Assembly (NCBI GenBank): GCA_019038645.1
Contig: JAHOYT010000036.1
Span: 62,001-126,000, forward strand
Length of the DNA: 64,000 nucleotides
From: Bacteroidales bacterium
GTDB taxonomy: Bacteria; Bacteroidota; Bacteroidia; Bacteroidales; UBA12077
Reading direction: 5' to 3'
The notes beneath the pieces were generated by a model. It was given only the letters and a program-made list of their open reading frames with translations. It was not told the origin of the DNA and searched no databases. The position numbers and the translations under genes are program-made. Below are positions 4,229 to 10,077 of this stretch, in pieces. Within the stretch, counting starts at the first letter, position 1, and each line of letters opens with the position of its first letter.

Positions 4229-5830
4229 TTAGTATTTGGATAATAATTTCCGGAATTCTGCATTTGGAATTACGCCTTCTTTATCTTCAGAAAATTCAGG
4301 TTTTAACCTGTTTACAAAATACATATCAAGTTCGATATTGTTTTTTACTTCAACTTTACCACGGTGAGTACAGTCAAAATATTCTTTAATATACTCATAA
4401 GTATCACCTGATACGTTTACTTTCCCAACCTCACCTGATTGCTCCATCCTGCTTGCTTTATTTACTGCATCACCCCAGATGTCGTATGCAAATTTTTTCT
4501 TTCCAATTACTCCGGCAATTACTTCTCCTGTATGAATGCCTAAACGCAATTCCCAGGCAGTTTCTCCATTTATTTTTTTCTCTTTCGCGTAATCATTCAT
4601 AAACTTTTGGATTTCAAGTCCGGCAAGAGTAATATCTATCGGATTACTTTTATTTCTTAATGGTAAACCGCCTGCACACATATATGCATCACCAATAGTT
4701 TTAATTTTTTCTATATAATGTCCTTCAATTAGTTCGTCAAATTTTTGGATATAAACATTTAATTCATTAATTAATTCCTGACTTTCCATTACACCGGTAA
4801 GTTTCGAAAAATCCTTAAAATCTGTAAAAAGAATCGAAACCATTTTGTATTGTTTCGATTTTGCGAACCCTTTTTTCTTTAATTGTTCAGCAGTTTCGAA
4901 TGGGAGTATATTAAGCAGAAGTTCATCAGATTTTTTCTTTTGTTCAGTGATAAACTCTTTTTGTATTTCTATTTCCTCTCTTTGTTTTTCAAGTAAAACA
5001 TTAGAATTTTCCAGATGTTCTGTTAAAGTTAATAAACTTTCGTTTTTAGCTTCAAGCCTTTCTTCCGCTTCCTTAATTGCCGTTACATTTGATTCAATTG
5101 CAATATATTTAATTATTATATCCTGCTCGTTGTAAACAGGGGTAAGCGTTGTATGAACCCATATTGGATTCCCTTCACTTGTTTCCCATTTGTTTTCATA
5201 AACAAAACTATCAGCACCTTCTTTACATTTTGATATGGCATTTGCTAATTTAGGATTGTAGTCTTTGTTAAAAATACTAGCTTCAAATTTCTCTTTAAAT
5301 TCTTCCAGATCATAGCCATACATCTTCTCAAATCCTTCATTAACCCATTCGATTATACCGTCGCCACTTAATATAGCTACACCTGTTGCAGTCTTTTTTG
5401 CGACAATAGAAAGTTCACGAAGTAATTCGTGTTCTTTATAAATATCATGCTGAAATTCTCTTCGACTCTCAGCTGCTTCGATACGCATTAATAACTCATC
5501 TTTTGAATATGGTTTTTTAATGAAATCCACTATACCATATTCAAATATGCGGTCAAAATTTGTTCTGGGAGAATATTCGGTAATAAGTAAAACAGGTATC
5601 CCGTGGGTTAACTTATCCTGCTTTAATGACATGATACTTTCAATACCATGTCTTGACAATGATTCAACATTGACTAAAATAATATCAGGATTGTGTTCAA
5701 GCGAAGTACTGTAAATGTTATTTTTGGCAGTTTTAATAATTCTAAATTCGTCATTATCATCTTTAAGAACATCTTGCAAATATTCAAATGCATCACTATT
5801 ATCATCTGCAATTAATATTTTATAGCTCAT
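4229..5830 (-). CDS. Receiver-PAS-coiled coil-class III adenylate/guanylate cyclase
   Basis: N-terminal REC fold; PAS (GVAILSGDGIIEWVNEGFEKMYGY); cyclase homology domain FTDFKDFSKLTG, KIKTIGDAYM, YDIWGDAVNKASRM. Confidence 0.92.
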   Translation of the reverse strand: MSYKILIADDNSDAFEYLQDVLKDDNDEFRIIKTAKNNIYSTSLEHNPDIILVNVESLSRHGIESIMSLKQDKLTHGIPVLLITEYSPRTNFDRIFEYGIVDFIKKPYSKDELLMRIEAAESRREFQHDIYKEHELLRELSIVAKKTATGVAILSGDGIIEWVNEGFEKMYGYDLEEFKEKFEASIFNKDYNPKLANAISKCKEGADSFVYENKWETSEGNPIWVHTTLTPVYNEQDIIIKYIAIESNVTAIKEAEERLEAKNESLLTLTEHLENSNVLLEKQREEIEIQKEFITEQKKKSDELLLNILPFETAEQLKKKGFAKSKQYKMVSILFTDFKDFSKLTGVMESQELINELNVYIQKFDELIEGHYIEKIKTIGDAYMCAGGLPLRNKSNPIDITLAGLEIQKFMNDYAKEKKINGETAWELRLGIHTGEVIAGVIGKKKFAYDIWGDAVNKASRMEQSGEVGKVNVSGDTYEYIKEYFDCTHRGKVEVKNNIELDMYFVNRLKPEFSEDKEGVIPNAEFRKLLSKY

Positions 5831-6069
5831 AAAGGTTAATGGTAGAATTATTATTCAGTTTTCCCGTTTAAAAATATAACAATTAAACTAAATAATAATT
5901 TTTTTACCTTGTTTTTTAATCTCATTATAAAGTTGTTTATACATACTTTTTGCTATTTCATCAAAAACAGCAATAAAGCATGCATCTAAAAATCAAAAAA
6001 TACGTTCAGATTCTAGAATTATCTGTTAGTATTCACTATTTTTATTTGCCAAATTATTAGATACTTAAA

Positions 6070-7308
6070 ATGGATCAAAAATTACTCTTAATAAATATAG
6101 AAGACCAAAGTGCAGAAAGGATCAATTCCATTTTAAAAAAAGAATTTCCGTTATTAAATATAAATGCCCCAATAAATTCTGATATAGTTCCGGATTGTAT
6201 TGACAAGATATTACCTGACATAGTTCTTTTCGATTTTGACATTTCTGAAAATCAGATACAAAAAAACATTGATTTACTTGAGTATATAACTAAAAATAAA
6301 AAATTGCCGGTTATTGCACTTTCTTCATCAAAAAATTACAATGCTCTGTTTAAAGCGGGGGCAATAAATTTTATTCACAAGCCTTTTAAGGATGTTACTT
6401 TAATTTCTAATATAAACACGGCTTTTAACCTAAAGGGAATCATAAATTCCATTAGAATTAAGGAAAAAGTAATTGATGAAAAAAATCAGAAAATTCAGTT
6501 TCAGGTTGAGAATGAACTTAAACAGCGTGAGATGATTACTCGCAAGAATAAGGAAATTATGGCAGATATAAGATATGCCAGTAGAATACAGCACGCTATT
6601 TTACCTCAGCTTGATTTTATTGAAAAATTCTTTCATGATTATTTCATTTTGCATCAACCTAAAAGACATGTTAGCGGAGACTTTTACTGGGTTTCATGTC
6701 AGGGAAACAAAAAAATTATTGCTGTTGGCGATTGTACTGGTCATGGTATTTCAGGAGCCTTAATGCACATGTTAGGTTCCGCATTTTTGAAAGAAATTAT
6801 AGTCGGTAATAATTTTAGTACAGCCAGCGATATTCTGGAACAGCTTAGAGATCATATTATGCAATCTCTAAACCAGACTGGTGAAACAGGGGAAGCACAG
6901 GACGGACTAGATATTTCTCTTTGCATAATTGATTGCGAAAACAATAAGCTTCAGTTTTCCGGTGCCAATAACCCTGTTTATATTATCAAGAACAATGAAT
7001 TAACAGAAATAAAAGGTGACAGAATGCCTGTTGGTATTCATATCAACTTTAATAAACCTTTTACTAATCATAACATTGATCTTGAACCTAACGATCAGAT
7101 ATATTTATTTTCAGATGGATATGCTGATCAGTTTGGAGGGCCGCATGGTAAAAAATTCCGCTATAAGCAATTTAAAGAATTGCTCGTAAAAGTTAGTCAT
7201 GAACCTATGAATATTCAAAAGGAAATATTAAATAACGTTCATGATAACTGGCGGGGTGAGGCAGAGCAAATTGATGATATTCTTGTTTTTGGATTAAAAA
7301 TAAAATAA
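6070..7308 (+). CDS. Response regulator receiver-SpoIIE/PP2C phosphatase (SiaA/RsbU-type)
   Basis: REC N-terminus; ASRIQHAILP, SGDFYW, DCTGHGISGALMHMLG, FSDGYADQFGG. Confidence 0.92.
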   Translation: MDQKLLLINIEDQSAERINSILKKEFPLLNINAPINSDIVPDCIDKILPDIVLFDFDISENQIQKNIDLLEYITKNKKLPVIALSSSKNYNALFKAGAINFIHKPFKDVTLISNINTAFNLKGIINSIRIKEKVIDEKNQKIQFQVENELKQREMITRKNKEIMADIRYASRIQHAILPQLDFIEKFFHDYFILHQPKRHVSGDFYWVSCQGNKKIIAVGDCTGHGISGALMHMLGSAFLKEIIVGNNFSTASDILEQLRDHIMQSLNQTGETGEAQDGLDISLCIIDCENNKLQFSGANNPVYIIKNNELTEIKGDRMPVGIHINFNKPFTNHNIDLEPNDQIYLFSDGYADQFGGPHGKKFRYKQFKELLVKVSHEPMNIQKEILNNVHDNWRGEAEQIDDILVFGLKIK

Positions 7309-7333
7309 CTTTAACCTTTATAAATTTTTTGGT

Positions 7334-9076
7334 GTGAGAAGCTCAATTAAAATTCATTTTCTGATAATTATTAACCTGCTCTTTTATTTTTCAGTTTTCG
7401 CACAGGAAATACCGGAAAATATAAAAACGGAACTTTCAGAATATGAAAATCAAATTGAAAAATATAAAAATGAAAATAATACTCAACAGGAACTAGGTTT
7501 GTTAAACAAAGCCGCATTTCTGTGCTGGAATAACCAGTTATACTCACGTTCAATAAATCATTTTAAAAGAGTTCTCGAGTTGAATGAGCAATCAGGAAAC
7601 CAAAATGGGATACTACTTAGTACAAATTATATTGGAATGATCTATGATGAAACTGAGGATTATAATTCAGCAATATTATACTTTAGTAAAGGATTGAATA
7701 TTAGTAAAAAACTTAATGACAAAAAAAATATTACTTCTGCCTTAATTAATATTTCGCAATCATATCAACAACTAACGAACTATGACGAGTCAAATAAATC
7801 AGCACTGGAGGGTGTTGATATTGCTAAAGAATTGAATGACTTAAAGTTGGTTAGGAGTTTTTATGGAATTTTAGCAAATAATTATCAAAATTTAGGGAAC
7901 TCAGAAAAAAGCATAGAATATTTTGATTTATTTGCATCTATTGATAAATTCCTGAAAAAGGAAGAAATAAAAGATATTAAGCAACAATCTGCTACAGAAA
8001 TAAATAAAGCACAAGAAGAAAAAAAGCAAACAAAAGAAAGGCTTGATGAACAAACTGATAAGTTAATAGAAACTGAAAGCTCTCTTGCAAAAGTTGAAGA
8101 AGTTTCCTCTGAACAAAAAACGCAACTTGAACTTCAGGAATCAAAAATAAGAGCACAGGCAGCGCAATTGAAATTTGAAAGACTTGTCAGGAATTTTCTT
8201 ATTTATGGCTTTATTGCTATTCTTATTTTTTCAGGTGTTTTAATATTATTCTACCGAAAAATAAATACACAGAAAAATAAAATTGAAGAGCAGAGAGACA
8301 AACTGGATTTACAAAATCAAAAAATCAATTCAAGCATTCAGTATGCACAAAATATTCAAAGGGCTATTTTGCCGGTTAAGAATCAGATTAAAAACCTGTT
8401 TGATAGTTTTATCATTTATAAACCAAAGGATATAGTTTCAGGAGATTTTTATTGGTTTACCCGACTAAAAGACAGAGCTTTTTTGGCGGCTGTTGATTGT
8501 ACTGGTCATGGAGTACCAGGCGCATTTATGTCGATGATTGGGAGTAGTTTGTTAAATGAAATTGTTTTGGAGAAACAGGTGTCAGAACCATCAAAAATAT
8601 TATCTTTATTAGATGAAAAAATTATTGAATCGTTAAGACAGGATGAAACAGAAAATAATGATGGTATGGATGTATGTTTTATTTCTATTGACTTAAAATC
8701 AAATGAAATTGCATTTTCCGGTGCAAAAAGACCATTGTTTATTTTTAAAAATAAAACTTCCGAATTTAATGAAATCAAAGGCGACAGAATATCAATAGGA
8801 GGTGCAAAAAAGGATAAAAAGAATGAAACATTCAATAACCATATTATTCAGACTGAAACCGGAGATATACTTTATTTATCTTCGGACGGTTTAACTGACC
8901 AGAATAATTTGGAACGTAAACGTTTCGGAAGTAACAGACTTAAAGAAGTTATATTGAGCAGTATTGCAGAACCAATGGATGTTCAGAAAGAAATAATAGA
9001 AAAAGAGCTAAATGATTTCCAGCGGGATGAAGAACAGCGGGATGATATTACATTAATAGGAATAAAAATAAATTAA
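7334..9076 (+). CDS. TPR-repeat, TM, SpoIIE/PP2C phosphatase (GTG start)
   Basis: Signal peptide, TPR-like repeats, one TM, AQNIQRAILP, SGDFYW, DCTGHGVPGAFMSMIG, LSSDGLTDQ. Confidence 0.92.
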   Translation: MRSSIKIHFLIIINLLFYFSVFAQEIPENIKTELSEYENQIEKYKNENNTQQELGLLNKAAFLCWNNQLYSRSINHFKRVLELNEQSGNQNGILLSTNYIGMIYDETEDYNSAILYFSKGLNISKKLNDKKNITSALINISQSYQQLTNYDESNKSALEGVDIAKELNDLKLVRSFYGILANNYQNLGNSEKSIEYFDLFASIDKFLKKEEIKDIKQQSATEINKAQEEKKQTKERLDEQTDKLIETESSLAKVEEVSSEQKTQLELQESKIRAQAAQLKFERLVRNFLIYGFIAILIFSGVLILFYRKINTQKNKIEEQRDKLDLQNQKINSSIQYAQNIQRAILPVKNQIKNLFDSFIIYKPKDIVSGDFYWFTRLKDRAFLAAVDCTGHGVPGAFMSMIGSSLLNEIVLEKQVSEPSKILSLLDEKIIESLRQDETENNDGMDVCFISIDLKSNEIAFSGAKRPLFIFKNKTSEFNEIKGDRISIGGAKKDKKNETFNNHIIQTETGDILYLSSDGLTDQNNLERKRFGSNRLKEVILSSIAEPMDVQKEIIEKELNDFQRDEEQRDDITLIGIKIN

Positions 9077-9080
9077 TCTG

Positions 9081-9611
9081 ATGATTGATACGAATATTGT
9101 TTCACTTATGAAAAGCAAAACATTATTATCATACAGAGGTCCTTTTTACATTGAATTAATTTCTGTTTTTGGAATGAATATCAGAAATTTTAATGACATT
9201 TATATAAATGCACGAAAGAAATTATTTAAAATTTTCATTGAACTTTCACAAAATGTTTCAAATTACTCAGAAGATTTCCATATGGTAAATAATGTTCAGA
9301 GAATTGGAATAGGAGAACTCTATTTAACGGAATTGGGTGAATCGTACAGCTTTACAACCAAAAATCAGGTTAAAGTTACAGATGCTAATATTTTAGCTGA
9401 ACGTTGTGAGTTGGTAAATGCTTCTGATCAGGGTAAATTAAGAGAACTTAAAAGGGAACAAAGAATAAATTCTCCTGGAGAAAAATTCGGAGCAAGAATC
9501 GGACTAATTCAGGCTGTAATGCTTTCCCGAAATAAGCTGGATTATAAGGTTGAGGAAATAGATGAAGATTTTTCCTATTTTTCTCTTACGGTAACAATTG
9601 ATAAATATTAA
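9081..9611 (+). CDS. SiaB-family protein kinase
   Basis: 176 aa; SiaB/DUF6272-like (NVSNYSEDF, GIGELYL); immediately precedes a SiaC-like gene. Confidence 0.8.
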   Translation: MIDTNIVSLMKSKTLLSYRGPFYIELISVFGMNIRNFNDIYINARKKLFKIFIELSQNVSNYSEDFHMVNNVQRIGIGELYLTELGESYSFTTKNQVKVTDANILAERCELVNASDQGKLRELKREQRINSPGEKFGARIGLIQAVMLSRNKLDYKVEEIDEDFSYFSLTVTIDKY

Positions 9612-9624
9612 AAAGCAATATATT

Positions 9625-10014
9625 ATGGAAAATATTTCTTTACAAAGCTCGCCAACTACGCCATATTTCCCCGAAGTTAATTTCAATGCTGACCAGGGTA
9701 TTTGTGATTTAAAAGGAGAATCGTATATGGAAGAAACGTATAAGTTTTATCTGCCATTAATAAACTGGTTAAAAGATTATACTAAAAACATTAAAAGGAA
9801 ATTAGAAGTAAATATAAAACTGATCTATTTAAACACAAGCTCAACCAAGTGTGTGCTTGATATATTGGAGCTGTTAAAGGATTATGAAGATCAGGGAGGC
9901 GAGGTAAAAGTAAACTGGTATTATGACAAATCTGATCCTGATATGATAGATGAAGTTGAAGATTTTGAAGCCGAATCCGGTATGAAAATAGAACTCAAAG
10001 AATTTGAACAATAG
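9625..10014 (+). CDS. SiaC-family (DUF1987) regulatory phosphoprotein; ATG at 9625 preferred over the 9598 alternative start
   Basis: TPYFPEVNFNADQGICDLKGESYMEETYKFYLPLINWLKDY and YLNTSSTKCVLDILELL. Confidence 0.85.
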   Translation: MENISLQSSPTTPYFPEVNFNADQGICDLKGESYMEETYKFYLPLINWLKDYTKNIKRKLEVNIKLIYLNTSSTKCVLDILELLKDYEDQGGEVKVNWYYDKSDPDMIDEVEDFEAESGMKIELKEFEQ

Positions 10015-10033
10015 ATGTAATAGCAAATTTACA

Positions 10034-10060
10034 GGGAGTTTTATTGAACTCCCTTTTTTA
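10034..10060 (+). terminator. Hairpin plus T-tract closing the Sia-like operon
   Basis: GGGAGTT-TTATTG-AACTCCC-TTTTTT. Confidence 0.75.
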
Positions 10061-10077
10061 AATCCTTACAAAGTTTT

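Follow-up and report, generated by a model that had tools for sequence, protein, structure and literature searches.

A SiaABC-type partner-switch operon beside a receiver-dead class III adenylate cyclase in an uncultured Bacteroidales bacterium

Genes and domains at the locus

The window analysed here (the whole stretch of DNA, 64,000 nucleotides) belongs to an uncultured member of the Bacteroidales whose draft genome spans 3.39 Mb and is 96.9% complete; among named records, MAGs lie nearest to it, for instance CSMAG_1991, UBA12171 and GWF2_33_16. Five open reading frames between positions 4229 and 10014 were confirmed where the original prediction had placed them; the intergenic gaps were as claimed, and Pfam and NCBIfam agreed with the domains it had assigned. 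Four of the genes form an operon on the + strand (6070-10014), in the order REC-PP2C, TPR-TM-PP2C, SiaB, SiaC and with gaps of 25, 4 and 13 nt between them, while the fifth encodes a cyclase and is divergent to the operon. The hairpin described at the operon end is also real: it is an intrinsic terminator at 10033-10054 (+) with a T tail, in a stretch (10010-10065) with a folding energy of -14.6 kcal/mol (z -3.6).

The first gene of the operon (6070-7308, +) encodes a SpoIIE-type PP2C phosphatase with a receiver domain (SpoIIE, 1.2e-20). The second (7334-9076, +) has a GTG start and encodes a PP2C phosphatase with a signal peptide, a TM segment and TPRs, the latter probably periplasmic (SpoIIE, 4.5e-24). 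For both phosphatases the best NCBIfam match was SiaA (9e-54 and 2e-57, respectively), over the catalytic part and below the equivalog cut-off; scores against the SiaA, SiaB and SiaC equivalog models were all under cut-off. The product of the third gene (9081-9611, +) matches Pfam DUF6272 (1.6e-25) and scored 101.3 bits against the NCBIfam SiaB_fam_kinase model (NF038262), above its cut-off of 85. Alignment to the SiaB chain of 6KKO showed that the IE-x-x-QN motif is retained. The last gene (9625-10014, +; ATG start) encodes a 129-aa SiaC phosphoprotein (PF09345, 1.8e-40). Its YLNTSS motif is identical to the T68 region of Pseudomonas aeruginosa SiaC, a match that gives T71 (9835-9837, +) as the predicted phospho-site. 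The domains, the SiaB family score and the phospho-threonine of the SiaC NTSS motif all agree with the SiaA-like/SiaB/SiaC partner switch that had been proposed, and the + strand operon is a genuine partner switch of the SiaABC type, without SiaD.

The locus shares with P. aeruginosa SiaABCD the PP2C-SiaB-SiaC gene order, the Y-L-N-T-S-S phospho-site and the SiaB-family kinase. Unlike that system, it has two PP2Cs, with REC or TPR inputs, and a divergent class III cyclase as its neighbour, in a genome that has neither SiaD nor GGDEF. To our knowledge there is one worked example of a SiaC (DUF1987) protein, which activates a c-di-GMP enzyme. In P. aeruginosa SiaD, the target of SiaC, is encoded in the same operon (PMC8457831). 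A diguanylate cyclase gene also lies downstream of siaC in Azospirillum. The original prediction had supposed that no GGDEF gene lies nearby, and none was detected, either near the locus or anywhere else in this genome.

The divergent gene (4229-5830, -) encodes a 533-aa REC-PAS-coiled coil-class III adenylate cyclase (Pfam Response_reg, PAS_9 and Guanylate_cyc, the last at 9.5e-50). When aligned to adenylate cyclase 9 (AC9), the catalytic domain (4310-4861, -) retains the metal-binding residues D337 and D381, the Lys of EKIKTIG, the Asp of YDIWGD, and the Asn and Arg of VNKASR, a set that is complete for a homodimer. Both metal aspartates are present, as had been claimed, but the second of them is D381 in TIGDAYM and does not lie in FTDFKDF. 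The same alignment bears out the Lys/Asp pair of ATP-type class III cyclases, suggesting that ATP rather than GTP would be the substrate and cAMP the product. A 63-aa coiled-coil linker (4868-5059, -) joins the PAS domain to the cyclase domain. In the receiver domain (5480-5818, -) the orthologue alignment places Asn54 at the phospho-acceptor position, in place of Asp, a substitution that the original prediction had not recorded. The protein resembles other REC/PAS class III adenylate cyclases in its full catalytic residues, PAS domain and coiled-coil transducer, but differs from them in a receiver that lacks the phospho-Asp.

Conservation of the linkage and loss of the receiver aspartate

In 19 of the 20 genomes of the genus, the REC-PAS cyclase and the operon are divergent neighbours, even though the linked genomes have diverged down to ~52% identity in REC-PP2C. 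These 19 include G004, whose contig stops before SiaC, and G010, which has no REC-PP2C gene. In the exception, G014, the cyclase has cdd-lysM neighbours and TPR-PP2C-SiaB-SiaC lies on another contig, again with REC-PP2C missing from the locus; because the tree places G014 inside the genus, this seems to be a secondary separation. Across the genus the spacing between the divergent units is retained at 189-298 nt (239 nt here, 5831-6069). A TTTCATCAAAAA-like block (window 5945-5970) in this intergenic region is common to most genus members; the region is otherwise poorly conserved in the genus alignment, and no regulator site was identified in it.

Outside the genus the two partners occur apart. 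The sister genus carries an orthologue of the operon (L139; SiaC 57-61% identical) with no adjacent cyclase, and an orthologue of the cyclase with cdd and lysM and no SiaC. Since SiaC is also absent from the cyclase locus in the G062 (lysM-cdd-cyclase) and G048 (cdd-cyclase) families, the cdd-lysM-cyclase neighbourhood, of which G048 has cdd only, predates the SiaC linkage. In several named Bacteroidales MAGs (L160-L164, L167, L183 and L214) the four-gene operon is present with no cyclase. SiaC loci were found by profile search of genome contigs with an alignment of SiaC orthologues, and beyond the linked set the flanks retrieved for 69 named SiaC loci contained no cyclase. Conversely, SiaB or SiaC lay within 6 kb in 3/57 cyclase loci from other SiaC-bearing families (the distance is 0.55 kb in G040 and 5.8 kb in G041, and in G042 SiaB is located 75 bp upstream), a frequency that by rough estimate is at about chance level for 6 kb and slightly above chance for immediate neighbours. 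The co-conservation proposed earlier thus holds within the genus but does not extend beyond it. Even there, the cyclase-operon pair is kept about as well as the flanking cdd-cyclase and siaC-ilvE pairs, so its conservation alone is not proof of function. Co-occurrence of SiaC and the cyclase over families ([[32,2],[19,21]], Fisher 1e-5) is real, although these and the other counts and statistics were taken on related genomes with phylogeny ignored, and it is far weaker than that seen between SiaC and the transporter described below.

The cyclase receiver has a residue other than Asp (N, C, G, F, S or T) at the phospho-acceptor position in 20/20 genus orthologues, whereas Asp is kept in all six of the sister-genus orthologues that have a receiver and in 8/11 orthologues from other families. 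On the tree, this loss maps to the lineage in which the cyclase gained the switch as its neighbour. In G068, G079 and G080 the Asp has been lost with no SiaC beside the cyclase, and the G014 receiver also lacks it, yet its operon is unlinked. Because the aspartate is lost in all genus members, the cyclase needs an input other than aspartyl phosphorylation. The receiver of REC-PP2C retains its phospho-acceptor Asp in 18/18 cases.

SiaC grips an element in SiaD that resembles the PAS-cyclase stalk (PMC8457831). Taking RISDxxQ as the reference for the SiaC-binding motif of SiaD (RISDRYQ and RISDGFQ, 7E6G; KISDRMQ, Azospirillum), we found that no window protein has a counterpart scoring higher than the best of 100 shuffles, and linkers of the whole REC-PAS-cyclase family scored no higher than 14.7 against 44-51 for true motifs. 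The stalk looks no different in relatives that lack the operon. In G001 and G003, with the operon still adjacent, it is shortened by 14 aa, a heptad multiple, and in G016, a species that retains the operon, by 28 aa (four heptads). One SiaD-like motif, VNSMLKLSESYQTI, came up in the REC-CYC paralogue (p ~0.005 against its own linker); it was rejected because these residues close the last helix of the receiver, and was further discounted as one among many linkers tested.

SiaC paralogues and TerB-domain ABC transporters

The window SiaC is one of 14 encoded in this genome, together with five SiaB domains in four genes, 18 SpoIIE phosphatases, four class III cyclases and 11 cNMP-binding proteins. 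With 14 SiaC genes to four SiaB genes, several SiaC proteins must lack an adjacent kinase, and the paralogues sit in very different gene contexts. Genomes of this order of Bacteroidota carry as many as 21 SiaC genes and mostly lack a GGDEF enzyme altogether, which means that SiaC must have another role there. The present locus offers one concrete candidate, a cyclase left without a phospho-input of its own, and TerB-ABC transporters are a second, with far better genomic support.

In this order, the partner signal for SiaC is strongest for TerB-ABC, an ABC-2 transporter of ~1020 aa with a TerB domain at its N terminus. Over 98 genomes, 57 have both SiaC and the transporter, one has SiaC only, none has the transporter only and 40 have neither; over families the association is [[33,1],[0,40]] (3e-20, phylogeny ignored). 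A SiaC gene is found within 1 kb of 61 of the 71 best-scoring TerB-ABC copies; these 61 come from 44 genomes, with 21 other families represented, and two arrangements recur, with the transporter gene either in line after PP2C-SiaB-SiaC or convergent to SiaC. When 20 further copies were picked for having no SiaC listed nearby, ten proved to have SiaC within 110 bp, and the other ten had none within ~2.5 kb on each side. No pThr-binding (FHA) domain was found in the TerB-ABC protein, and our literature search found no description of the SiaC/TerB-ABC pair. These data suggest that serving transporters is a frequent role of SiaC in this order, and make TerB-ABC a strong candidate for a SiaC output not described so far. 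In the genome studied here TerB-ABC lies beside SiaC at L015:5065-8127 (-), and we saw the same neighbours at L128, L129, L131, L143, L145, L228, L230, L239 and L243.

Signalling through the switch and the place of the cyclase

The genes and their catalytic residues, the linkage in the genus, the missing receiver Asp and the lack of GGDEF are shown by the data; what we infer about this locus is the direction of signalling, the SiaC target and cAMP as the product. The balance of the evidence leans, somewhat beyond even, towards an autonomous SiaABC-type switch whose target is elsewhere, beside an independent, phosphorylation-dead REC-PAS cyclase. Here the membrane phosphatase TPR-TM-PP2C, with its probably periplasmic TPR sensor, and the soluble REC-PP2C would dephosphorylate SiaC at T71, and SiaB would phosphorylate the same residue. 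Dephosphorylated SiaC would then bind its target, most likely encoded elsewhere because no partner gene is constant across the operon clade. The cyclase would be a separate REC-PAS class III adenylate cyclase that has neighboured the operon since the genus ancestor, and would probably be driven through its PAS domain since its receiver is no longer phosphorylatable. Independence of the two units is supported by the recurrence of the operon without the cyclase in the sister genus and other Bacteroidales, by the 0/69 and 3/57 counts, and by the lysM-cdd-cyclase neighbourhoods without SiaC. It is further supported by a linker that lacks a SiaD-type motif and has undergone a four-heptad deletion in G016 with the operon present. 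Several observations sit less easily with it: the linkage persists despite the sequence divergence within the genus, the loss of the receiver Asp falls in the linked lineage, this genome has a SiaC gene within 6 kb of three of its four cyclases, and no alternative target was identified for the window operon. The precedents also favour a target close by, as SiaD is in the SiaC operon of P. aeruginosa (PMC8457831) and the Azospirillum diguanylate cyclase gene follows siaC.

Those same observations open a tentative alternative, which we think rather unlikely, in which dephosphorylated SiaC, bound to the PAS-cyclase stalk or the dead receiver, would raise or lower cAMP synthesis and so stand in for the lost phospho-input. 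The receiver Asp, lost throughout the genus and retained in all six sister-genus receivers, is the main new point in favour of such gating. Together with the linkage in 19/20 genus genomes, the genome lacks GGDEF, its 11 cNMP-binding proteins are possible cAMP receivers, and SiaB or SiaBBC lies beside cyclases in the unrelated families G042 and G040. The authors of the SiaC-SiaD work, moreover, suggest that DUF1987 proteins modulate adjacent proteins (PMC8457831). However, both partners exist apart outside the genus, the cdd and ilvE neighbours are about equally conserved within it, and the cyclase has a deletable stalk with no SiaC-binding motif. In addition, G014 combines a dead receiver with an unlinked operon, and G068, G079 and G080 have lost the Asp with no SiaC beside the cyclase. 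The original proposal that SiaC is coupled to the cyclase thus finds partial support: the genus linkage stands, joined by the receiver loss, but a wider linkage and a SiaD-type motif were not found. The evidence does not go far enough for the enzyme to be called a SiaC-gated adenylate cyclase. The fuller proposition, that a Sia-type switch took over a receiver-dead class III cyclase in this genus and that SiaC phosphorylation controls cAMP and not c-di-GMP, is if anything slightly more doubtful. If gating does hold, the system would share with the HptB-HptR-HsbA-HsbD and BgrV-BgrR switches, which have been compared with SiaC (PMC8457831), the control of a nucleotide cyclase by phosphoprotein switching; those switches, however, use STAS proteins and GGDEF enzymes, whereas here there is SiaC/DUF1987 and no GGDEF.

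It is improbable that the window switch instead has a TerB-ABC transporter as its output, with this SiaC reaching it in trans in the way that the paralogues may in cis. The near-identical phyletic profiles (57/1/0/40) and the proximity of 61/71 best copies to SiaC would fit this, but no TerB-ABC gene lies beside the window operon or was found beside its orthologues, and the SiaC paralogue that neighbours TerB-ABC here (L015) shares only 33% identity with the window SiaC. Equally poor odds attach to simple co-expression, with the divergent units sharing a regulatory region or physiological theme and no protein contact, as the divergent arrangement, the conserved spacing and the short common block have to be set against an intergenic region that is otherwise poorly conserved and yielded no regulator site.

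Other associations of these domains were seen in passing. A class III cyclase with an HD domain (L023:8268-10072) abuts a SiaC gene in this genome, and in at least 10 genus genomes this cyclase-HD is convergent with one or two SiaC genes, its end ~30 bp or less away; similar cyclases in other families occur without SiaC. On L018 a REC-cyclase lies ~5.7 kb from a SiaB-SiaB/SiaC pair. Eight genus members (G002, G004, G011-G013, G015, G016 and G018) encode a single GGDEF protein of ~200 aa, which is ~25-53 kb from the cyclase where both share a contig, and G010 has a different, longer GGDEF protein. Fused SiaB-SiaB and SiaB-SiaB-SiaC proteins are encoded at L053:2067-3584 and L018:7447-8553, and in G040 a SiaB-SiaB-SiaC triple fusion lies directly upstream of a REC-cyclase.
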